Assembly: GCF_012926505.1 (NCBI RefSeq)
Contig: NZ_JABBNT010000001.1
Span: 310,001-374,000, forward strand
DNA from: Pacificispira spongiicola
GTDB lineage: Bacteria > Pseudomonadota > Alphaproteobacteria > UBA8366 > Aestuariispiraceae
Direction of reading: 5' to 3'
DNA: 64,000 bases
Numbering within the stretch: the stretch's first letter is position 1; every line of letters begins with the position of its first letter. Under the pieces are notes generated by a model. It made no database searches. It saw only the letters and a program-made list of their open reading frames with translations, and was not told where the DNA came from. A program made the position numbers and the translations under genes. Shown here one piece after another: positions 37,299-62,612 of the stretch.

Positions 37299-38975
37299 TC
37301 AGTTGCCGAGAATACCCGGCAAGCGCAAGCCGTTTTCCTTCGCGCAGTCGATCGCGATGTCGTAGCCCGCATCCGCATGGCGCATGACGCCGGTGGCAGG
37401 ATCGTTCCACAGCACCCGCCCGATGCGGGCCGCGGCCTCGTCCGTGCCGTCGCAGCAGATGACGATGCCGGAATGCTGGCTGAATCCCATGCCGACGCCG
37501 CCGCCATGGTGCAGCGATACCCAGGTCGCCCCCGACGCGCAGTTCAGCAGCGCATTCAGCAACGGCCAGTCGGACACGGCGTCCGACCCGTCCTTCATGC
37601 CTTCGGTTTCGCGATTCGGACTGGCGACGGACCCGCTGTCCAAATGGTCGCGGCCAATGACGACCGGCCCTTTCAATTCGCCGTTCTTCACCATTTCGTT
37701 GAAGGCGAGACCCAGGCGATGCCGCTGTCCCAACCCGACCCAGCAGATACGCGCCGGCAGGCCCTGAAACGAAATCCGCTCCCGCGCCATGTCCAGCCAG
37801 TTGTGCAGGTGTTCGTCGTCGGGGATCAGCTCCTTCACTTTCTGATCGGTCTTGTAGATATCTTCCGGATCGCCGGACAGGGCGGCCCAGCGGAACGGGC
37901 CGATCCCCTTGCAGAATAGCGGGCGGATATAGGCCGGAACGAAGCCGGGGAAGGAAAAGGCGTTGTCCAATCCTTCTTCCAGCGCCATCTGACGGATGTT
38001 ATTGCCGTAGTCGACGGTCGGGATGCCTTTTTCGTGGAACCGCACCATGGCCTCCACATGCACGCGCATGGAGGCACGGGCGGCCTTTTCCACCGCCGCC
38101 GGGTCGCTTTCCCGCTTGTCGCGCCATTCGGCCAGGGTCCAGCCCTGGGGCAGGTAGCCGTTGATCGGATCATGCGCGGAGGTCTGATCCGTCACAATAT
38201 CCGGGCGAATGCCGCGGGCTTCGATTTCCGTGAAGATATCCGCCGCGTTGCCGACGAGGCCGACCGATTTTGCCTCGCCCGCCTTGGTCCAGCGGTCGAT
38301 CATCTCCAGCGCCTCGTCCAGCGTATCGGCGCGTTCATCGACATAGCGGGTACGGATGCGGAAATCGATGTGGTCCGGGTCGCATTCCACGGCCAGGCAG
38401 CAGGCACCCGCCATGACGGCGGCCAGCGGTTGTGCGCCGCCCATGCCGCCCAAACCGCCCGTCAGGATCCATTTGCCCTTCAGGTCGCCGTTATAGTGCT
38501 GACGCCCGGCTTCCGCGAAAGTCTCGTAAGTTCCCTGCACGATGCCCTGGGACCCGATATAGATCCAGGACCCGGCGGTCATCTGGCCGTACATCATCAG
38601 TCCGGCCTTATCGAGCTTGTTGAAATGTTCCCAGGTCGCCCAATGGGGGACCAGGTTCGAATTGGCGATCAGGACGCGCGGCGCGTCTTTATGCGTGCGG
38701 AAGATGCCGACCGGCTTGCCGCTCTGCACCAGCAGGGTTTCGTCGTCTTCCAGCGTCTTCAGGCTGTCAGCGATTTTATCGAAATCCGCCCAGGTCCGTG
38801 CGGCACGCCCGATCCCGCCATAGACGACCAGCTCATTCGGGTTTTCGGCCACTTCCGGGTCCAGATTGTTCATCATCATCCGGTAGGGCGCTTCGGTCAG
38901 CCAGCTTTTGCAAGTCAGTTCCGGCCCACGCGGCGCGCGGACGACCCTGGTGTTGTGGCGGGGATTGCTGCTCAT
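37299..38975 (-). CDS. hutU: Urocanate hydratase
   Basis: 558 residues, the family length. It hydrates urocanate to imidazolonepropionate using tightly bound NAD. The signature [19 protein letters not shown] (NAD-binding) and the catalytic region [19 protein letters not shown] are intact, as is [18 protein letters not shown]. It lies 20 bases downstream of hutH and is the third gene of the hutI-hutH-hutU-importer transcript. Confidence 0.97.
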
Positions 38976-38995
38976 CGTCGTTTCCTCTTCAAGCC

Positions 38996-40567
38996 TTAGG
39001 CATTCTGAACCAGCCCGAGCCCCATCGATCCGGGCAGGAGCGGGAAGATATCCCGGCCCGCCGCGCGGACCGGATCGCCGGACCGCACCAATTCCGCCGC
39101 CCGGATCAGGTCGGGCGACAGATAGCGGTCCTCTTTCAATGCGGGCACGGCGTCGCGGATCACCGTCATTACCGCTTTCAAGCGGGGGCTGGTCGTCAAC
39201 GGTGCTCGGAATTCAATGCCCTGGGCCGCCATCAGCAATTCGATCCCGACGATCTGTTCCAGATTGCGGTTCATATCCATCAAGCGCCGCGCCCCGTGGC
39301 AGGCCATGGAAACATGGTCTTCCTGATTGGCGCTGGTCGGCGTCGAATCGACGGAGGCCGGATTGGCCCGCTGTTTGTTTTCGGAATATAGCGCGGCGGC
39401 CGTGACCTCCGCGATCATGAAACCGGAATTGACGCCCGGATCGGGGGTCAGGAAGGGCGGCAGGCCGAAATTCAACGCCGGGTCGACCAGCATGGCAATG
39501 CGCCGTTCGGTGATAGACCCGATTTCGGCGATCGCAATCGCCAGATGGTCGGCGGCGAAAGCCACCGGCTCCGCATGGAAATTACCGCCGGACACAATAC
39601 CGGCCCCATCCGTCAGGATCAGCGGATTATCGGTCACCGCGTTGGCCTCGATCTCCAGAGTCGATGCGGCCTGACGCAGCACATCTAGGCACGCGCCCAT
39701 AACCTGAGGCTGGCAGCGGATGCAATACGGGTCCTGCACCCGTTCGTCGTCGACGGCGTGGCTTTCGCGGATATCGCTGCCGTCCATCAACAGACGCAAC
39801 GCATGGGCGGAGTCGATCTGCCCCTTATGGCCGCGCAGGGTATGGATTTCCGGATGGAACGGGGCACTGGACCCCATCGCCGCGTCGGTCGACAGCGCGC
39901 CCGACACCAGCGCAGCCCTAAAGGCCCGATGCGCGTCGAACAGACCGGCCAGGGCCAGGGCAGTGGACACCTGCGTCCCGTTGATCAGGGCCAACCCTTC
40001 CTTCGGTCCCAACTGCACCGGCGACAGGCCAGCCCGTTGTAAGGCTTCGGCCCCCGGCAGGCGTTCGCCGTTCAGGATCGCCTCGCCCTCGCCGATCATC
40101 ACCGCGCTCATATGCGCAAGCGGTGCCAAATCGCCACTCGCCCCGACCGAGCCCTGGCCCGGAATGACCGGATGCACGCATTTCGCCAGCATGCCTTCCA
40201 GCAACTCAATCAATTCCCAACGCACGCCGGACGCGCCGCGCCCCAGGGAAATCAGTTTCAACGCCATAACCAGACGCACCACCGCTTCCGGCAGGGGATC
40301 GCCCACCCCGCTGGAATGCGACAGGATCAGGTTGCGCTGCAATTGTGCGGTATCGGCGGGGGCAATTCGCTTCTGCGCCAATTTGCCGAAGCCAGTATTC
40401 ACGCCATAGACTGGGGCCGAGCCGTTCGCCGCCGCCTGCACCCGGTCGGATGCCGCGCGAACCGCCGCTTCCCAACTGCGGTCGATCGTGACCGCCGCGC
40501 CGTCGCGGTAAATCCAGCGCAGCGCATCGATACCGACCTTGCCGGGAACGAGTTCCAGGGTCTTCAT
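38996..40567 (-). CDS. hutH: Histidine ammonia-lyase
   Basis: 523 residues. It removes ammonia from histidine to give urocanate. The Ala143-Ser144-Gly145 triad in [13 protein letters not shown] forms the MIO electrophile. [11 protein letters not shown] and the later [13 protein letters not shown] and [11 protein letters not shown] segments are conserved. Its ATG overlaps the hutI stop as ATGA. The reading frame and motifs look fully functional. Confidence 0.97.
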
Positions 40568-41796
40568 ACATTGCCTCCAAAAATACGGCGAGCCAGGGGG
40601 TTGATGCCGAAGCGATAGGCGAGCTCCGCCGGGGTTTCGACATCCCAGATGGCGATATCGGCCCGCTTACCGACTTCCAGCGTCCCGACCTCATCCAGAC
40701 AGCCCAGCGCCCGCGCGCCTTCGCGCGTGATCCCGGCCAATGCCTCCTCCGGCGTCATGCGGAACAGAGTGCAGGCCATATTGACGGCCAAGAGGGGGGA
40801 GAACATGGGAGACGAGCCGGGGTTGCAGTCGGTCGCGACCGCAATCGGCACGCCCGCCTGCCGCAGCAGGTCCAGCGGCGGAAACTTGGTTTCGCGCAGG
40901 GTATAGAACGCGCCGGGCAAAAGGACGGCGACGGTACCGTTCGCCGCCATCGCCTCCACGCCCTGCTCGTCCAGATATTCCAGATGATCGGCGGACAACG
41001 CCTTGTACCCGGCGGCCAAGGCCGTCCCGCCCATATTGGACAATTGTTCGGCATGCAGCTTCACCTTCAGGCCAAGCTTCACCGCCGCGTCGAACAACGT
41101 CGCGACTTGAATCGGGTTGAAGGCGATGGTCTCGCAAAAGGCATCGACCGCGTCTACCAGCCCTTCCGACGCCGCGGCGGGCAGGATTTCCCGGACGATC
41201 CAATCGATATAGCCGTCGGCATTGCCCTTGTATTCCGGCGGGATGGCATGGGCCGCGAGAAAGCTGGTTTCGATCCGAACCGGGCGCTCCCGTCCGATCC
41301 GCCGCGCGACGCGCAGCATCTTCAATTCGGTTTCCAAATCCAGGCCGTAGCCGGACTTGATTTCGACCGTCCCCGCCCCTTCGTCGATGAAGGAATCGAT
41401 ACGGGGCAATGCCGCATCCAGCAGGTCGTCTTCCGACGCGGCGCGGGTCGCGGAAACCGTGGACAGAATGCCGCCCCCCGCCTTCGCAATTTCTTCATAG
41501 CTGGCGCCCAGCAGGCGCAGTTCGAATTCTCGCGCCCGGTTGCCGCCGTAGACCATATGCGTATGGCAATCGACCAGCGCCGGGGTCGCCAGCATCCCGT
41601 GCTGACTTTCCGACGGCCATGACTGCATACGCGACGGCAGGTCGGCGGCGGTACCGGCATAGGCGATCCTGTCGCCGCTGATGGCCAGGACGCCGTCTTC
41701 GATCAGGCCGTAGGGCTGCCCACCCGCGACCATGGTCGCCAGCGTCACATCGGTCAGCACGACCGTGCTATTATCGTCGGATACCGCGTCAGACAT
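40564..41796 (-). CDS. hutI: Imidazolonepropionase
   Basis: 410 residues from ATG 41796; the frame extends another 1.1 kb upstream, antisense to hutF, but nothing there is family-like. It hydrolyses imidazolonepropionate to N-formimidoyl-glutamate. Metal and active-site motifs: [37 protein letters not shown], the later [10 protein letters not shown] and [11 protein letters not shown] (quoted separately). First gene of the minus-strand hut transcript; the promoter shared with hutF holds paired HutC-type half-sites. Confidence 0.96.
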
Positions 41797-41833
41797 GCCG
41801 CCCCACTCCGCTTCGTGCTTGCCTATCGAGACG

Positions 41834-41875
41834 TTTTTTGTATAGATAAAATGATTGTTTTGTCCATACAAAAAA
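41834..41875. promoter_or_regulatory. HutC-type operator region between hutI and hutF
   Basis: TTTTTTGTAT (41834-41843) and ATACAAAAAA (41866-41875) form a perfect 10-base inverted repeat with a 22-base centre. Inside it are two 12-mers, TTGTATAGATAA (41838-41849) and TTGTCCATACAA (41860-41871). Each matches the perfect palindrome TTGTATATACAA at ten positions, and their centres are 22 bp apart. Confidence 0.7.
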
Positions 41876-41886
41876 TGGAGGAACGG

Positions 41887-43245
41887 ATGACGGGCCTGTT
41901 TTGCGATTGGGCATATCTGCCGGAAGGCTGGACGCCCCATGTCCGGATCGGCGTCGACGATACCGGTCGCATCGCCTCCATAGACCGAAACGCGCAGGCG
42001 CAGCCCGGCGACAAACTCTTGTCCCATCGTCTGGTCCTGCCCGCGGTCGGCAACCTGCACTCCCACGCCTTCCAGCGCGCCATGGCCGGACATGCCGAAT
42101 GCCGGGGCGATGGCGAGGACAGTTTCTGGACGTGGCGGGAAGCGATGTACGGCTTCGTCGGGCAACTGACCCCGGACGATGTCGAAGCGATCGCGGCCTA
42201 TGCCTATATGGAAATGGCGGAGGCCGGGTATGCCGCGGTCGGAGAATTCCATTATCTGCATCACGCGCCCGGTGGAGACGCCTACGACGATCCGGCGGAA
42301 ATGGCGCATCGGATCGCGGCGGCGGCCGACATCGCGGATATGGGCCTCACCTTGGCCCCGGTCCTCTATGCGCAAGGCGGCGTCGACCGGCGACCCTTGA
42401 GCGACCGGCAATTGCGCTTCGGTTGCGACCTGGATCGGTTCGCGAACCTGCATGGCGCGATAAAGCTGACCGCCCCGGATTCCATCCTGGGCGTATCGGC
42501 GCACAGCCTGCGCGCCGTGCCGCCGGAATGGCTGTTCCCGCTGACACAGATGGGCCAGGGACCGATCCATATTCACATCGCCGAGCAGACAGCCGAAGTA
42601 GACGACGTAAAGGCCGCCTACGGCGCGCGTCCGGTCGCATGGCTGATGGACAATGCCGCCGTGGACGAAAGCTGGTGCCTCGTCCACGCAACCCATATGG
42701 TCCAGACGGAAACGGAAGCTGTCGCCCGATCCGGGGCCGTGGCGGGCCTGTGCCCAATCACGGAAGGCAATTTGGGCGACGGTATTTTTGACGGAAAGCG
42801 CTTCATCGACGAAGGCGGGTGCTATGGCGTCGGCAGCGATTCCCATATCCGGATCGGGTTGACGGAAGAATTGCGCCTGCTGGAATACAGTCAACGCCTA
42901 CGCGACCGGCGGCGGACCGTGCTTCGAACAAATCCGGGATCGATCGGCGACACGCTCTTCCAGGCTGTGACGGCGGGCGGCGCGCGGGCGCTGGGTCGCC
43001 CCACAGGGTCGTTGGAGGTCGGCAATTGGGCCGATATCGTCGCGCTGGACGCCGACCAGATCCTGCCCTTCGTACCCGGTCAGGCGCAGTGGCTGGATCA
43101 CTGGATTTTCGTGTCGGGCGATCGGGCCGTGCGGGACGTCTGGTCGGCCGGGCGACATTGCGTAACGGATGGGCGTCATCGGGAACGCACGGGAATCACC
43201 GCACGATTTCACGACACTTTGGCGCGACTCATGGAAAACATGTAG
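41887..43245 (+). CDS. hutF: Formimidoylglutamate deiminase
   Basis: 452 residues from ATG 41887, supported by GGAGG five bases upstream. An amidohydrolase: [20 protein letters not shown] holds the metal-binding His-x-His, GEFHYLHH and [13 protein letters not shown] follow, and [20 protein letters not shown] carries the catalytic Asp. It converts N-formimidoyl-L-glutamate to N-formyl-L-glutamate and ammonia, committing this organism to the five-step hut route. The next enzyme, N-formylglutamate deformylase (HutG), is not encoded in the window. Confidence 0.95.
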
Positions 43246-43247
43246 GT

Positions 43248-43955
43248 ATGAGAGAGCTGGCCCCCTATCTGCGCATCAAGGAAGACCTGCTGGACCGCGT
43301 CCGCAGCGGCACCTGGAAGCCCGGCGACCTGATCCCCGGCGAGCAGCGTCTGGCGGAACAATTCGGCTGCGCCCGCGCCACGGTGCACCGCGCCTTGCGC
43401 GAATTGGCGGAAGAAGGCGTGCTGGAACGCCGCCGCAAGGCCGGAACGCGCGTCGCCCGTCCGACAAGCCGCAGCGTCGCCTTCGACATTCCGCTGGTGG
43501 AGGATGAAATCCGCGCCACGGGCGCACGCTATCATTACGAATTGCTGGAACGGGAAATAGCCCCCCTGCCCCCGGCGGAGGCCGCATCCCTGGAACGCGC
43601 GACAGGAACGCCCGCGCTGCATCTGCGCTGCCTACATTTCGCGGACCGCCGCCCCTACCAACTGGAAGATCGCTGGATCGACATCGACACCGTGCCGGAA
43701 GCTGTGGACGTCGATTTCGCGGCGGAAGGAGCGAACGGCTGGCTGGTGCACAACGTTCCCTGGACCGATGCGGAACATTCGATCCATGCCGATTTGGCGG
43801 CCGGAGAAATTGCAAGGTCCTTGAACCTGACGGATGGCGACCCCGTGCTTGTCGTGGAACGCCGGACCTGGAACGACAAGGGCCCGGTCACGACCGTGCG
43901 CTTCCATCACCCGGGTCGCAGCCATCGCCTGCGCACCGCTTTCGTGGCCCGTTAA
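43248..43955 (+). CDS. hutC: GntR/HutC-family histidine utilisation repressor (UTRA domain)
   Basis: 235 residues from ATG 43248, two bases after the hutF stop. The winged helix-turn-helix is GEQRLAEQFGCARATVHRALRELAEEGVLERRRKAGTRVAR (quoted in part as FGCARATVHRALRELAEEGV). The UTRA effector domain follows (LHLRCLHFADRRPYQLEDRWIDID). HutC proteins are usually released by urocanate. Its place in the hutF transcript predicts autoregulation through the operator region upstream of hutF. It diverges clearly in sequence from the second HutC-type protein at 57164-57877. Confidence 0.9.
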   Translation: MRELAPYLRIKEDLLDRVRSGTWKPGDLIPGEQRLAEQFGCARATVHRALRELAEEGVLERRRKAGTRVARPTSRSVAFDIPLVEDEIRATGARYHYELLEREIAPLPPAEAASLERATGTPALHLRCLHFADRRPYQLEDRWIDIDTVPEAVDVDFAAEGANGWLVHNVPWTDAEHSIHADLAAGEIARSLNLTDGDPVLVVERRTWNDKGPVTTVRFHHPGRSHRLRTAFVAR

Positions 43956-56761: not shown

Positions 56762-57176
56762 GGTTACATTGCCCAGCCTTACATTGCCCAGCCTTCTGCT
56801 GGAACCGCTGCCGCATGGATATTCGATTTCGAAATTGACGCCCGGATCGCCAGCGCCCGATTGGGCACTCGGTGACGGCTGCGTCAGCGTCACGGCGGTG
56901 GAGGATGAAACCTCCATCGTATGCCGCAGCGACCGTGTGCCGGATGGGGTGGCACGGTCGGACGGCTGGACGGCGGTCAAGGTGACGACCCTGTTCGAAT
57001 TGGACGAGCCGGGGGTCGTTCTCGCCGCCGTTAAGCCGATCTCGCAGGCCGGTCTCGGTATCTTCGTCCTCTCGACCTATTATCGGGATTATATACTCGT
57101 CCGAACGGCGGAAATGGATCGAGCGGTCCGTCTATGGACCGATGCGGGTCACCAAATCGGCGATCAGGCGCGATAG
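56754..57176 (+). CDS. ACT-like domain protein (CASTOR/aspartokinase-type)
   Basis: 140 residues, two ACT-like halves. The second half shows the hallmark LDEPGVVLAAVKPISQAGLGIFVLSTYYRDYILVR (core GLGIFVLSTYYRDYILV), typical of ACT_7-type amino-acid-binding proteins. An exact tandem 15-bp duplication at 56764-56793 repeats TLPSL near the N-terminus. The gene is coupled to the GNAT gene and its 3' end overlaps the HutC-like gene on the other strand. Ligand unknown. Confidence 0.83.
   Translation: MSEVTLPSLTLPSLLLEPLPHGYSISKLTPGSPAPDWALGDGCVSVTAVEDETSIVCRSDRVPDGVARSDGWTAVKVTTLFELDEPGVVLAAVKPISQAGLGIFVLSTYYRDYILVRTAEMDRAVRLWTDAGHQIGDQAR
56764..56793 (+). repeat. Exact 15-bp tandem duplication within the ACT-like gene
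   Basis: The 15-mer TTACATTGCCCAGCC occurs at 56764-56778 and again at 56779-56793, in frame, duplicating five codons. It looks like a recent slippage event. Confidence 0.95.
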
Positions 57177-57877
57177 GCGAAACGGGTACCGAAGCATTGG
57201 CTGCTGCCCGGATGGCTCAGGCGCGATACCGTGGCTACATCGTCATGGGTCCAGGTCCGCCGCCGGAGAATCAGACAGGGCTCGCCGTCATCAAGGTCCA
57301 GCAATTCCCGTATCGTCGCGTCGGGCAAGGCGGCCTCGACGATATGTTCGACCTCCGACAGGACGGCGGCCCCCATCAGCGCGGCATACGGGGTAACGCG
57401 GGTGAAATCCGTATCCAGATAGTTGGGGAAGATGGCCGGATTGACATATCGGTCTTCCACCTGAACCGGAATGCCGTCGCCCAGATGCAGCACGACCGAA
57501 TGAAACACCCGGCTGCCCGGCGGCAGGTGCATTTCTTCCGCCAGCCCCCCAGCGGCGGCCACGGTTTCCAATGTGACCAACCGCTGCGAATGCGTCTGCC
57601 CCGCCGCCTGCAACTGGTCCGCGATGCTGCGCAGTTCCAGAATTTCAACCGGCGCCTTGCGTTCCGCGACATAGGTGCCGGTGCCCTGAACCCGCACCAG
57701 AACGCCCGCTTGCGACAATTCTCGCAAGGCCCGGTTCACCGTCATGCGGCTGACGCCCATATCGCGCAGCAGCTCGTTTTCCGACGGAATACGGTCGCCG
57801 GGTTTCAAACGTCCGGTTTCGATGCGTTCCAGGATCGTCCGCTTGATCCGTTCGTATTGTGGTACGGCGTGCGTCAC
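57164..57877 (-). CDS. GntR/HutC-type transcriptional regulator (UTRA domain), second copy
   Basis: 237 residues from GTG 57877, preceded by AAGGCGGA; TTG 57892 would overlap the PhyH stop. The DNA-binding part GDRIPSENELLRDMGVSRMTVNRALRELSQAGVLVRVQGTGTYVAE (core GVSRMTVNRALRELSQAGVL) and the UTRA part (HSVVLHLGDGIPVQVEDRYVNPAIFPNYLDTDFTRVTP, core GIPVQVEDRYVNPAIFPNYL) match canonical HutC more closely than the regulator inside the hut cluster does. It follows the PhyH-like gene on the same strand, and a perfect HutC-type palindrome lies in the promoter of that gene. It probably controls the PhyH/cupin/creatinase group, alone or together with hut. Confidence 0.85.
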   Translation of the reverse strand: MTHAVPQYERIKRTILERIETGRLKPGDRIPSENELLRDMGVSRMTVNRALRELSQAGVLVRVQGTGTYVAERKAPVEILELRSIADQLQAAGQTHSQRLVTLETVAAAGGLAEEMHLPPGSRVFHSVVLHLGDGIPVQVEDRYVNPAIFPNYLDTDFTRVTPYAALMGAAVLSEVEHIVEAALPDATIRELLDLDDGEPCLILRRRTWTHDDVATVSRLSHPGSSQCFGTRFAYRA

Positions 57878-57888
57878 CGATCCGCCTT

Positions 57889-58719
57889 TCAATCCGAATA
57901 GACGATAGGGAACTGTTCCCCGCCGAACGGCGCACCGTCCTCGTATTCCAGGTCCGGAAAGGCTGGGGATGTCATGCCGGGCCGCTTCACGAATGTCGCA
58001 TCGTCGCCGACCAGCCGCCAGGACACGACCCGCCGCCGGATCGGCGAATTGTTCGCGGGCGCCCCGTGCAGCATGCCGAAATTGAAGACAACGGCGTCGC
58101 CCGGCTCCACCGCCCAGCCCAGAATATCGAACTGGTCGCGGTTCGCGGCGACGTCCGGCACGCCGCTGCTGTCGTCATTGGCATAGAGGTCCGTCCCGTC
58201 GAAGCGCGTCGGCTTGAAGCTTGTGCCCCACAGATGCGACCCGGCGACATATTCGATCGTGCGTTCGCGCGGCACGGGGTCCAACGGCACCCAGAAACTG
58301 ACGCTCTGCCGCGCCTCGACCAGATAGTAGGGCCCGTCCTGGTGCCAGGGGGTGACGGTGCTGTTCCCCGGTTCCTTCACCAGAATATGTTCGTGGAACA
58401 TGCGCGCGGTATGCGATCGCATCAGCCCCGCCGCCAAGGCGCCCAGAGGAGAATTGGTGACGAAATCGCGGAAGAACGGGTTGGTGTTCCAAGTCACATA
58501 GTCCTGAAAGAACGGCGATTTCCCATCGTCGGGACGGTAGGTGCGTTCCCGCCAGGATGGGTTTTCCATCGCCCAGTCGATGCCGTCGGCCAGAACCGTC
58601 TGCCAATCGTTGAAGACGCCGCGCAGGACGACCGCCCCATCCGTTTCGAACCGCTCTACCGTTTCCGGCGTCAGTCCGAGAAGTCCGATATCCGCTGCCT
58701 TGGCTTGCTGTTCCGTCAT
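57889..58719 (-). CDS. Phytanoyl-CoA dioxygenase (PhyH) family oxygenase
   Basis: 276 residues, GGAGGA before the ATG. The Fe(II)/2-oxoglutarate site is seen in TPWHQDGPYYLVEARQSVSFWVPL (His-x-Asp core WHQDG) and the distal His plus Arg in FNFGMLHGAPANNSPIRRRVVSWR. Opening ERFETDGAVVLRGVF is typical. It probably hydroxylates or demethylates a small substrate. Context (creatinase, HutC-type regulator) suggests a methylated amine or guanidino compound, but this is inference. Confidence 0.88.
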   Translation of the reverse strand: MTEQQAKAADIGLLGLTPETVERFETDGAVVLRGVFNDWQTVLADGIDWAMENPSWRERTYRPDDGKSPFFQDYVTWNTNPFFRDFVTNSPLGALAAGLMRSHTARMFHEHILVKEPGNSTVTPWHQDGPYYLVEARQSVSFWVPLDPVPRERTIEYVAGSHLWGTSFKPTRFDGTDLYANDDSSGVPDVAANRDQFDILGWAVEPGDAVVFNFGMLHGAPANNSPIRRRVVSWRLVGDDATFVKRPGMTSPAFPDLEYEDGAPFGGEQFPIVYSD

Positions 58720-58773
58720 GACGTCCTCCCGCTGACAAAAATTTGCGCCGCCTCAATTCCACGGCAACGCTAC

Positions 58774-58785
58774 TTGTATATACAA
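58774..58785. promoter_or_regulatory. Perfect HutC-type palindrome upstream of the PhyH gene
   Basis: TTGTATATACAA is a perfect 12-bp palindrome 55 bases upstream of the PhyH start and about 100 bases upstream of the divergent cupin gene. It agrees with the GTATATAC-type operators of HutC-family proteins and with the two degenerate 12-mers in the hut promoter. Confidence 0.7.
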
Positions 58786-58885
58786 CTTCTGTCAAACGAT
58801 ACCGTCGCTTGCGGAAGCGTCGGCCTTATGCGCTGATGCGGTCTTGGATTTCCGCCCCTCTCACCCCCAAATCCGCGATATCGCC

Positions 58886-59218
58886 ATGAAGATACCCACC
58901 TCCCCGTTTACCGTTACCGACTGGGCTAACCTGCCCCGAACCGAACATCCCGGAGAAACCGGTGTCGCCTATTGGCGCACGGTAACCGTCGGGGACCTTC
59001 GCATCCGTCAGGTCGAATATTCGCCGGGATATCTGGCCGACCATTGGTGTGACCGGGGCCATGTCTTCTATGTCCTGGAAGGGGAATTGGTGTCGGAACT
59101 GAAAGACGGGCGAAAGACCGTCATGACCGCCGGACAGAGCTATCACGTCTCGGATTTCGGGGATGCCGCACACCGGTCCTATTCGGAAAACGGGGCAAAG
59201 CTCTTCATCGTCGATTGA
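58886..59218 (+). CDS. DHCW-motif cupin fold protein
   Basis: 110 residues from ATG 58886; a start at 58844 is also open. The characteristic block EYSPGYLADHWCDRGHVFYVLEGEL holds the DH-W-C signature and the first metal His, and the second His is in HVSDFGDAAHRSYS. A small single-domain cupin of unknown activity. It faces the PhyH gene across the operator palindrome and converges with creatinase. Confidence 0.88.
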   Translation: MKIPTSPFTVTDWANLPRTEHPGETGVAYWRTVTVGDLRIRQVEYSPGYLADHWCDRGHVFYVLEGELVSELKDGRKTVMTAGQSYHVSDFGDAAHRSYSENGAKLFIVD

Positions 59219-59290
59219 GGCCCCCCGGCCGCCTGCTGGCGGATGCGGCCCGTATCGCGTCGGCAATACGGGCCACCTCCAACCTATTTC

Positions 59291-60511
59291 TTAGGCGACG
59301 ATGTTCTTCTCCGGCCCGTAAGGGAAGCCGGTGATGTTCTCCGCCCCGGTCTCGCCGACAACCAGGATATCGTGTTCCCGATACCCGCCTGCGCCCGGCC
59401 GGCCTTCCGGAATCCACAGCATCGGTTCCATCGACACGACCATGCCCGGTTCCAGCACCGTGTCGATATCCTCCCGCAGTTCCAGCCCCGCCTCGCGGCC
59501 GTAATAGTGGCTGAGGATACCGAAGGAATGGCCGTATCCGAAGGACCGGTATTGCAGCAAGCCTTCATCGGCGAAGAAGCGGTTGATCTCCGCACAAATG
59601 CCGGAGCATGTCGCGCCCGGCTTGATCAGGCTTATGCCCAATTCATGGGCGGCGATATTGGCCTTCCAGATGCGCAGGGACTCCGCGTCCGGTTCGCCCA
59701 GAAACAGGGTGCGTTCCAACGCCGTGTAGTAACCGGAAATCATCGGGAAGGTGTTGAGGGACAGAATATCCCCCATTTCCAGCTTTCGCGTCGTCACCGG
59801 GTTGTGTGCGCCGTCGGTATTGATGCCGGACTGGAACCAGACCCATGTGTCGCGCAATTCCGACTCCGGCCGCGACTTCGCGATTTCCAGTTCCATCGCA
59901 TCGCGGCCCGCCATGGCGACGTCGATTTCCCGCGTGCCCTCCTTGATCGCGGCGCGGATCGCCGCGCCCCCGACATCGGCGACGCGCGCGCCTTCCCGGA
60001 TCAGCACGATTTCTTCTGCCGACTTCACCATCCGCGCGGCCATCGTGTCCGGCGCGATATCGACCAGTTCCGGCCCGCCCAGCATGGAAACCGCCGTATC
60101 CCGCGCCGCCAAGGTCAGGTGGTCGCCCTCAATCCCCAGCCGTTTCACCGACGTCGGCAGGACGGAGGCAACAGCCCGCCAATAGTTGTTCCGCTGCCAA
60201 TCGGTATAGGTGACATTGTCGCCAAAGGACCGCCGCCAAGGCTGGCCCGCATCGATATTGGCGGAAATGGTGGTGCAGCGATCCTGCGTCACGACACAGC
60301 CATAGGGCCGCCCGAAGCTGCAATACAGGAAGCCGGAATAATAGGCGATGTTGTGCATGCTGGTCAGCAGCACCGCCGGGACATCCCGTTCCGCCATGAT
60401 CGCACGCAGGGTCGCCAGACGGCGTTCGTATTCCGCCGCGCTGAACGGCAGCGGGGCCTTTTCGCCATTGGGGCGTTGGAAGAATTCGGGGCGTTTCGAT
60501 AAATCGGTCAT
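59291..60511 (-). CDS. Creatinase (creatine amidinohydrolase)
   Basis: 406 residues from ATG 60511; the frame extends to 60652 but the extra sequence is not conserved. The sequence follows Pseudomonas creatinase closely along its length: SMHNIAYYSGFLYCSFGRPYG, DTWVWFQSGINTDGAHNPVTTRK (core SGINTDGAHNPVTTRK), DILSLNTFPMISGYYTALERTLFL, RSFGYGHSFGILSHYYGREAGLELREDIDTVLEPGMVVSMEP and the ending FPYGPEKNIV. This pita-bread-fold enzyme without metal hydrolyses creatine to sarcosine and urea. No sarcosine oxidase or urease is in the window. Confidence 0.93.
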   Translation of the reverse strand: MTDLSKRPEFFQRPNGEKAPLPFSAAEYERRLATLRAIMAERDVPAVLLTSMHNIAYYSGFLYCSFGRPYGCVVTQDRCTTISANIDAGQPWRRSFGDNVTYTDWQRNNYWRAVASVLPTSVKRLGIEGDHLTLAARDTAVSMLGGPELVDIAPDTMAARMVKSAEEIVLIREGARVADVGGAAIRAAIKEGTREIDVAMAGRDAMELEIAKSRPESELRDTWVWFQSGINTDGAHNPVTTRKLEMGDILSLNTFPMISGYYTALERTLFLGEPDAESLRIWKANIAAHELGISLIKPGATCSGICAEINRFFADEGLLQYRSFGYGHSFGILSHYYGREAGLELREDIDTVLEPGMVVSMEPMLWIPEGRPGAGGYREHDILVVGETGAENITGFPYGPEKNIVA

Positions 60512-60770
60512 CACACGACTCCATTGTCCAAACCGGGCAGTGGAGGGTTCGACATGCCCGGCTATACGTCCCGGCGTACAGGACAGCAGGTCACATCGTT
60601 CCGACGACCGTGACGAACTAAAGGCCCGCGACGCCATCGCGGCATCCGTCACGGCGGCGACTTTATGGAAGATCGGGATTTCCGGTCAATAGATTTGTCG
60701 GGACAACGATCCCGCTTGATCCGAAGCGCCGCACTGGCTATATCCGGGCGGTACCGCCGCTTCGGCGCAT

Positions 60771-60844
60771 GCGGGTGTAGTTCAATGGTAGAACGGCAGC
60801 TTCCCAAGCTGCATACGGGAGTTCGATTCTCCTCACCCGCTCCA
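60771..60844 (+). tRNA. tRNA-Gly (anticodon CCC)
   Basis: The 74-base cloverleaf starts GCGGGTG and ends CACCCGC-T-CCA, so CCA is encoded. The anticodon stem GCAGC/GCTGC holds loop TTCCCAA with anticodon CCC at 60803-60805. The T-arm loop is TTCGATT. Reads GGG codons. Confidence 0.96.
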
Positions 60845-61634: not shown

Positions 61635-61817
61635 GTCCTTCCGGTCCGATTCGATCGGCCGATATGGCACGCCGCCTTTTCCACTATTAGGCGTACTATA
61701 ATAATCTTCTCACCGCGAGGAAAGCGGCTCCCTTGCCGATCCGGCACCGAATTCCACTTGATCGAATGGGCGACCCGGCATCAAATCCGCCCGTTCGTCA
61801 CGTCCGGAGGTTCGGCC

Positions 61818-62612
61818 ATGTGCCGCTGGCTCGCCTATTGGGGCCCGCCCCTGTTCATGGAAGATTTGGTCACCAAGCCGGATCGGTCGCTGATCCATCA
61901 AAGCCTGCATGCGGCCGAGGCGAAGTCGGAAACCAATGGCGACGGTTTCGGCATCGGCTGGTACGGGGAACGGAACAATCCCGGCCTGTACCGCGAAATC
62001 CTGCCCGCCTGGAACGACGAGAACCTGAAACACCTGTCGGCGCAAATTCGATCCCGCCTGTTCTTCGCCCATGTCCGGGCCTCGACGGGGACGGCAACGA
62101 CGCGCGCCAACTGCCATCCCTTCACACAAGGCCGCTGGCTGTTCATGCATAACGGCCAGATCGGCGGCTATTCGAAAATCCGCCGGGCGCTCGAACAGGC
62201 CCTGCCGGACAGGCTCTATGCCTCCCGCCAGGGGACGACGGATTCCGAACTGATCTTCCTGTTGGCGCTATCGATGGGACTGGACGACGATCCGGTCGGC
62301 GCGATGGGCAAAAGCCTGGGCTTCGTCGAAGGCGAGATGCAAAAGGCGGGCATCGACGAACCGCTGCGTTTTACCGCCGCCCTGTCCGACGGCGACCGGC
62401 TGTTCGCCTTCCGCTATTCGACCGACGCCATGGCCCCGACGCTGTACCATTCCTGCACTGAAACGCCTTGCACTGGCGGCGGGTCGCTGACCGTCGTGTC
62501 CGAACCCCTGGACACCGACCGCAAACGCTGGACCGCAATCCCGCCCAGCCACGCGATCTCCGTCACGGCCGATGGCGCGTTGACGACGGTCCCGTTCGCG
62601 GTTCGGACCTAA
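61818..62612 (+). CDS. Class II glutamine amidotransferase (YafJ-like)
   Basis: 264 residues from ATG 61818 with GGAGG upstream. Cys2, exposed after Met removal, is the N-terminal nucleophile (MCRWLAYWG). Further class II motifs: SETNGDGFGIGWYG, FAHVRASTGTATTRANCHPF, MHNGQIGGYSKI and GTTDSELIFLL. The substrate of such stand-alone glutaminase domains is mostly unknown; EgtC-type ergothioneine enzymes are related, but no ergothioneine genes are nearby. Confidence 0.92.
   Translation: MCRWLAYWGPPLFMEDLVTKPDRSLIHQSLHAAEAKSETNGDGFGIGWYGERNNPGLYREILPAWNDENLKHLSAQIRSRLFFAHVRASTGTATTRANCHPFTQGRWLFMHNGQIGGYSKIRRALEQALPDRLYASRQGTTDSELIFLLALSMGLDDDPVGAMGKSLGFVEGEMQKAGIDEPLRFTAALSDGDRLFAFRYSTDAMAPTLYHSCTETPCTGGGSLTVVSEPLDTDRKRWTAIPPSHAISVTADGALTTVPFAVRT

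Follow-up and report, generated by a model that had tools for sequence, protein, structure and literature searches.

Why does Pacificispira spongiicola carry a second HutC-type repressor outside its histidine utilization (hut) cluster, and which genes does this repressor control? The question is raised by a 64,000-nucleotide stretch of contig NZ_JABBNT010000001.1 (positions 310,001 to 374,000; hereafter the window), in which a regulator gene that we term hutC2 lies about 13 kb from a hut cluster with its own regulator gene, hutC1. Near hutC2 are genes for a PhyH-type oxygenase, a DHCW cupin and a creatinase. A sequence-only reading of the window had proposed that HutC2 controls all three in the scavenging of nitrogen from methylated or guanidino compounds. 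Our comparisons of sequences and gene neighborhoods suggest that positions 57164-58795 form a two-gene, probably self-regulating PhyH-hutC2 operon, which would constitute an oxygenase side-branch of histidine catabolism and would not serve creatine scavenging. We assign this reading a probability of roughly 0.6.

PhyH (57889-58719, minus strand) is the first gene of the operon and encodes an Fe(II)/2-oxoglutarate oxygenase of a hut-associated group (PF05721, 89.6 bits against a cut-off of 22). The second gene, hutC2 (57164-57892, minus strand), has a TTG start that overlaps the PhyH stop codon by four bases, such that the pair reads as one operon; 15 bases into hutC2 there is also an in-frame GTG. 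Its full-length product combines a GntR winged helix-turn-helix domain (PF00392) with a UTRA domain (PF07702), and exceeds the cut-off of the HutC equivalog model TIGR02018 (271.2 bits versus 220). Thus, the oxygenase and the regulator had both been correctly recognized from sequence.

Between PhyH and the cupin, as had also been noted, is the perfect palindrome TTGTATATACAA (58774-58785), a predicted HutC-type operator located 55 bp upstream of the PhyH start. The palindrome contains TGTA-N2-TACA, the consensus operator given for Pseudomonas HutC (PMC12977541). Its 10-base core, TGTATATACA, has one exact copy in the 4.2-Mb genome, and the operator with up to two mismatches matches three times in the window versus 0.26 expected. 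The context is promoter-like. A -35 element, TTGACA (58790-58795, minus strand), lies 4 bp from the operator, and a -10-like TAGCGT (58767-58772, minus strand) follows at a spacing of 17 bp, with the operator between the two elements and both pointing at PhyH. GGGAGG at 58725-58730 (minus strand) is the likely PhyH ribosome-binding site. The arrangement of TTGAC[A/C], 4 bp and operator recurs at four other loci (L179, L220, L226 and L228; L and G numbers denote loci and genomes). Moreover, in three hut-linked sisters of HutC2 (L150, L151 and L153), the identical 12-mer precedes the regulator gene itself by no more than about 100 bp. The consensus match, these sister 12-mers and similar sites at HutC-linked PhyH genes elsewhere support the earlier proposal that regulator, palindrome and PhyH belong together.

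PhyH belongs to an oxygenase family that is repeatedly found in hut clusters, an association that appears to be new. In a survey of 385 genomes of the class (thresholds of E ≤1e-50 for HutC and E ≤1e-62 for PhyH), PhyH is present in 54, HutC in 48 and both in 21. The two genes lie within 10 kb of each other on one contig in 10 of these 21, such that 10 of the 48 HutC genomes have a nearby PhyH, compared to about 0.2 expected from a simple estimate that ignores kinship. We also scanned named genomes for PhyH relatives, keeping the best 80 of 589 matches and viewing 10-kb flanks. HutC or hut enzymes are in view of 16 of the 80 and a hut enzyme in 13, and six PhyH genes abut a same-strand hutU, hutG or hutH.

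The complete comparison comprised 104 loci, 101 of which contain a PhyH above threshold (L192-L194 had been included for their HutC), and 26 distinct PhyHs across all loci were labelled hut-linked. A hut enzyme accompanies 22 of the 26; the label derives from HutC alone in L177, L179, L200 and L227 (with a HutC of just 32% identity in L227), and the hut gene closest to PhyH in L220 and L226 is at a distance of 8 kb. Loci that belong to one family (L178, L180-L182 and L204; L175, L176 and L200) cannot be counted as independent. In 10 of the 26, the gap between PhyH and a same-strand hutU, hutG or hutH is no more than 66 bp, as judged from the edges of protein matches, and the PhyH and hut matches overlap in L178, L180, L181, L182, L195 and L204. 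Hosts of hut-linked PhyHs include Hyphomicrobiales, Rhodospirillaceae, Stella, Komagataeibacter, Acetobacter, Limnohabitans, Variovorax and one gammaproteobacterial bin. On a tree of 97 proteins plus the window PhyH, from which identical proteins were dropped, the window protein is nearest by path to those of L195 (64% identity over tree columns) and L196, both of which reside in hut clusters.

Candidate operators upstream of PhyH appear to track this linkage in part. We scanned 300 bp upstream of, and 45 bp into, each PhyH, with enough upstream sequence available for 96 of 97 loci. A site matching at least 10 of the 12 palindrome positions was found at 10 of 26 hut-linked loci versus 2 of 70 others (Fisher p 2e-5, related loci not being independent). 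One exception, that of Acetobacter pomorum (L228), shares its site with hut-labelled relatives from Acetobacter. A variant, CTGTATAGACAG (9/12), is present upstream of PhyH in L175, L176, L200 and L207, and in three hut-linked loci that have no site (L195, L202 and L272) PhyH lies behind a hut gene on the same strand.

Several observations weigh against the reading of PhyH-hutC2 as a branch of histidine catabolism. The -10 element is weak, with three of six matches, and the promoter is absent from the list of an automatic promoter scan. No 10/12 site is present at 16 of the 26 hut-linked loci; these include L201, L241, L180 and L181, where PhyH is ahead of hutU or hutG, an arrangement that argues against an operator upstream of PhyH as a universal rule. 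No hut gene is in view at 64 of the 80 best relatives, 18 of the 80 stretches being shorter than 12 kb. Even the close relatives in L197 (58% identical), L198 (55%) and L199 (59%) show none, although the L197 and L199 stretches are long, and two of the three sit in the five-row clade of the window PhyH itself. Other PhyH subclades adjoin LysR regulators and other transporters (some as annotated; L222, L251 and L078 by eye). The hut label requires 12 changes on the PhyH tree, such that linkage must have been gained or lost often. Moreover, the operon is about 13 kb away from a hut cluster that has its own HutC1, so that either HutC1 or HutC2 may act at TTGTATATACAA, and the meeting of PhyH with creatinase twice in the genus, described below, leaves a small probability for a link to creatine. 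Among plasmid-borne relatives, no hut genes are annotated in the five stretches examined (of 23 matches); in three of the five, from Rhizobium, Caballeronia and Defluviimonas, a LysR gene is next to PhyH. A PhyH search of viral contigs gave no match.

Urocanate is the releasing effector of known HutC proteins. We propose that HutC2 binds TTGTATATACAA in the PhyH promoter and occludes RNA polymerase, such that the PhyH-hutC2 operon would be autoregulated, and that an intermediate of the hut pathway, for example urocanate, would release it. The induced Fe(II)/2-oxoglutarate oxygenase would then oxidize a histidine-related amino acid, and its product would feed into the hut pathway, whose genes are about 13 kb distant; alternatively, the enzyme might clear a side product of that pathway. 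The preferred substrate class would be an imidazole amino acid such as N-methylhistidine, which could be oxidatively demethylated to yield histidine and formaldehyde, although the choice of N-methylhistidine is a guess from chemistry. Repression, effector, co-expression with hut genes and substrate are all inferred.

Features of the PhyH protein are compatible with such chemistry. H126, D128, H218 and R229 are invariant in an alignment of 15 sequences and form an HxD...H triad plus a downstream arginine. (The sequences are mostly the best matches; those of G266 and G163 were chosen for a nearby HutC, and those of G002 and G004 for a nearby creatinase.) As in the family generally, these residues would bind iron and 2-oxoglutarate, which is consistent with the alignment to MysH. 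By sequence, MysH (PDB 9c9n) is the closest solved structure to PhyH (92 bits), and it is also the closest by fold to the predicted model (pLDDT 88; TMq 0.76, with only 27% identity), followed by SnoK/SnoN. Unlike the hut-linked PhyHs, MysH serves cyanobacterial secondary metabolism in the biosynthesis of palythine, and it is not known to have any hut linkage. It is predicted to hydroxylate a glycine substituent that is then lost (PMC10510106). MysH and the amino-acid hydroxylases among the fold neighbors make an amino-acid substrate and N-dealkylation chemistry reasonable for PhyH. Together, the likeness in predicted fold and the linkage to hut genes might point to an N-methylated or otherwise modified histidine.

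Other neighbors of hut-linked PhyHs were considered as clues to the substrate. Solute-binding proteins near them differ, being of the Peripla_BP_6 type in L182, the NMT1 type in L177 and an amino-acid type in L217; no single substrate class follows, and we dropped transporter type as a clue. The L177 protein, as well as the L217 protein and an NCS1-like permease at the same locus, score below NCBIfam cut-offs. In Komagataeibacter (L217:9953-14576), PhyH is followed by the amino-acid-type solute-binding protein, likely permease and ATPase genes and the NCS1-like permease, and the layout in Acetobacter (L228:6225-11014) is similar by eye. Transporters of the COG1457 family, whose specificity is unsettled, have previously been noted in HutC regulons (PMC5343134). 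An aldehyde dehydrogenase gene adjoins PhyH in L180 and L181, but it is not a specific sign of formaldehyde handling. In Acinetobacter baylyi (L249:9983-12583), a PhyH relative precedes a flavin-dependent oxidoreductase resembling the MSMEG_0569 family (347 bits, cut-off 498), and another PhyH-like gene is located upstream by eye.

A broader version of the proposal is that, in many Proteobacteria, a HutC-controlled PhyH demethylates N-methylhistidine or oxidizes another imidazole amino acid and passes the product to HutH and HutU. The co-location with creatinase would then suggest joint use of animal-derived N-methyl compounds such as methylhistidine and creatine. We regard this version as possible but doubtful. 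Unlikely, too, is that PhyH belongs to the HutC regulon and does not feed histidine catabolism at all, instead making a hydroxylated amino acid or clearing a toxic by-product when histidine is abundant. This second alternative would fit the presence of the leucine hydroxylase GriE, the proline hydroxylase H11 and the ectoine hydroxylase EctD among the 50 best fold matches of the PhyH model, and the fact that hut pathways with a PhyH are otherwise complete, as in L195 and L204, where hutF, hutI, hutH, hutG and hutU are all present. However, the overlap of PhyH with hutG or hutU in the six loci named above favors, without proving, a step in the same metabolic flux.

It is improbable that TTGTATATACAA is used mainly by HutC1 with HutC2 as a redundant copy. 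Sites of the HutC family are alike, and both regulators pass the HutC cut-off. Indeed, HutC1 scores higher than HutC2 on TIGR02018 (292.5 versus 271.2 bits) and lower on the narrower model PRK14999 (138 versus 220 bits, both under the cut-off of 424), so the earlier description of HutC2 as closer to canonical HutC than the regulator of the hut cluster is not supported. However, in a tree of 55 HutC-type proteins HutC2 shares a five-member starred clade with the HutCs of G335, G244, G412 and G057, whereas HutC1 is in a different clade common to all five congeners examined. The hut-linked label applies to three members of the HutC2 clade (from G335, G244 and G412); the short stretch available for the G057 member contains no hut gene. 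In L192 and L193, the sister regulator genes adjoin hutU; hutC2 itself is not adjacent to hut genes. The perfect 12-mer is the form found upstream of the sisters of HutC2, and HutC2 is full length, whereas the hut promoter near HutC1 has only two degenerate sites, TTGTATAGATAA and TTGTCCATACAA (41838-41871, between hutI and hutF), each matching at 10 of 12 positions. An extra HutC next to a PhyH is also present in a second genome, G335, which carries two HutCs (C1:1220621 and C4:66182), one beside hutU and near HutC2 in the tree, the other beside a PhyH.

Very unlikely is the scavenging model with which we began, since the conserved partners of PhyH are hut genes, to which that model did not connect it, and not creatinase. 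The two remaining genes are what they were said to be. The DHCW cupin (58886-59218, plus strand; NF038084, 165.5 bits, cut-off 70) is divergent from PhyH across the operator. Beyond it lies a true creatinase gene (59291-60511, minus strand), whose product has the creatinase 1chm as its best PDB match (555 bits, covering residues 8-405 of 406); the stretches around the catalytic His and Glu residues are the same in both proteins, and nothing notable differs. The creatinase gene is 571 bp from PhyH on the same strand. However, the cupin on the opposite strand between them makes an ordinary creatinase-PhyH operon unlikely, and the sole way to join the two would be a read-through transcript antisense to the cupin. 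In the stretches examined, none of the 26 hut-linked PhyHs has creatinase as a neighbor and none of the 101 PhyHs has the cupin, and the 350 bp upstream of creatinase contain no TGTA-N2-TACA. At the level of gene neighborhoods, creatinase is thus absent next to relatives that keep the regulator and PhyH, an outcome that the sequence-only reading had itself named as refuting it, and both genes were rejected as partners on the basis of the 104 loci and, for creatinase, the 385 genomes as well. The cupin may possibly be a second target of HutC2 across the operator, but it is not conserved with PhyH.

Of the 385 genomes, 12 carry both creatinase and HutC, and only in this one are the two within 10 kb of each other. 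Creatinase and PhyH occur together in 25, and are that close in two of them, this one and its congener G002. The latter count is above a simple chance estimate (Poisson p 0.006) and speaks for the scavenging model, as does the gene order in congeners G002 (L078:8815-10868) and G004 (L079:9014-11052), where PhyH is directly upstream of a same-strand creatinase gene in an apparent operon (gap of 29 bp in L078 and at most 41 bp in L079). However, these PhyHs fall in a different starred clade, and the creatinases beside them share 63-64% identity with that of the window. For the closest creatinase relatives, at 77-81% identity (G195, G009, G064, G006 and G148), either the 20-kb stretches read (L083 and L084) contain no PhyH or the coordinates place no strong PhyH match within 10 kb. 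By eye, a LysR-like gene is divergent to the G002 and G004 PhyHs. Two proteins nearby that are conserved between both genomes (281 and 365 amino acids in L078) have no Pfam match at E 1e-5.

We also considered TTGTCGGGACAA (60695-60706, upstream of creatinase), which conforms to TTGT-N4-ACAA, as a creatinase operator. This candidate was rejected: it has no TGTA-N2-TACA and matches TTGTATATACAA at 8 of 12 positions. It is one of 22 such sites in the genome, versus 9 for a reversed control pattern, and a site of this type is present at none of the 48 other creatinase loci examined (upstream sequence is lacking for L015, and L012/L078 and L007/L079 each denote one and the same gene). We therefore judge the creatinase to be an ordinary enzyme and a neighbor unrelated to the HutC2 operon.

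The hut cluster of the window (37299-43952, delimited with tblastn) comprises hutU (37299-38975), hutH (38996-40567) and hutI (about 40573-41760) on the minus strand, followed by hutF (about 41896-43242) and hutC1 (43263-43952) on the plus strand. No hutG was found by tblastn in the cluster within the 64-kb window; a homologue resides on another contig (G000:C12:491274-492053) and is 49% identical to the hutG of L182. At higher window coordinates than creatinase are a tRNA-Gly gene (60771-60844) and a class-II glutamine amidotransferase gene (61758-62612) whose product resembles EgtC of ergothioneine biosynthesis (178 bits, under the cut-off of 219).

The system shares with the published HutC regulon of Proteobacteria a HutC-family regulator, a TGTA-N2-TACA operator and, in its near relatives, proximity to hut genes. 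It differs in that HutC here seems to govern a dedicated oxygenase operon located outside the hut cluster. In the HutC section of a comparative-genomic regulon reconstruction (PMC5343134), the members are hut enzymes, HutD, transporters and a his operon, with no oxygenase, and the words "oxygenase", "phytanoyl" and "hydroxylase" are absent from its main text. Among the matches listed in the open-access literature, we found no publication linking PhyH with hut genes and nothing useful on bacterial demethylation of methylhistidine. Thus, HutC and its operator are known, and a HutC regulon with a dedicated oxygenase appears to be new.

Histidine breakdown by the hut pathway is textbook knowledge, and comparative genomics has charted its HutC regulon. 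Yet PhyH does not figure in the main text of that reconstruction, even though the gene adjoins hutG or hutU in several members of the Alpha- and Betaproteobacteria and also occurs in the hut cluster of a gammaproteobacterial bin. If our reading is correct, a copy of HutC can sit away from the hut cluster with a single effector gene, and part of the proteins annotated only as "phytanoyl-CoA dioxygenase family" would gain a testable function. An oxygen-dependent reaction would also be tied to histidine breakdown, which may thus have a previously unrecognized oxygenase step.

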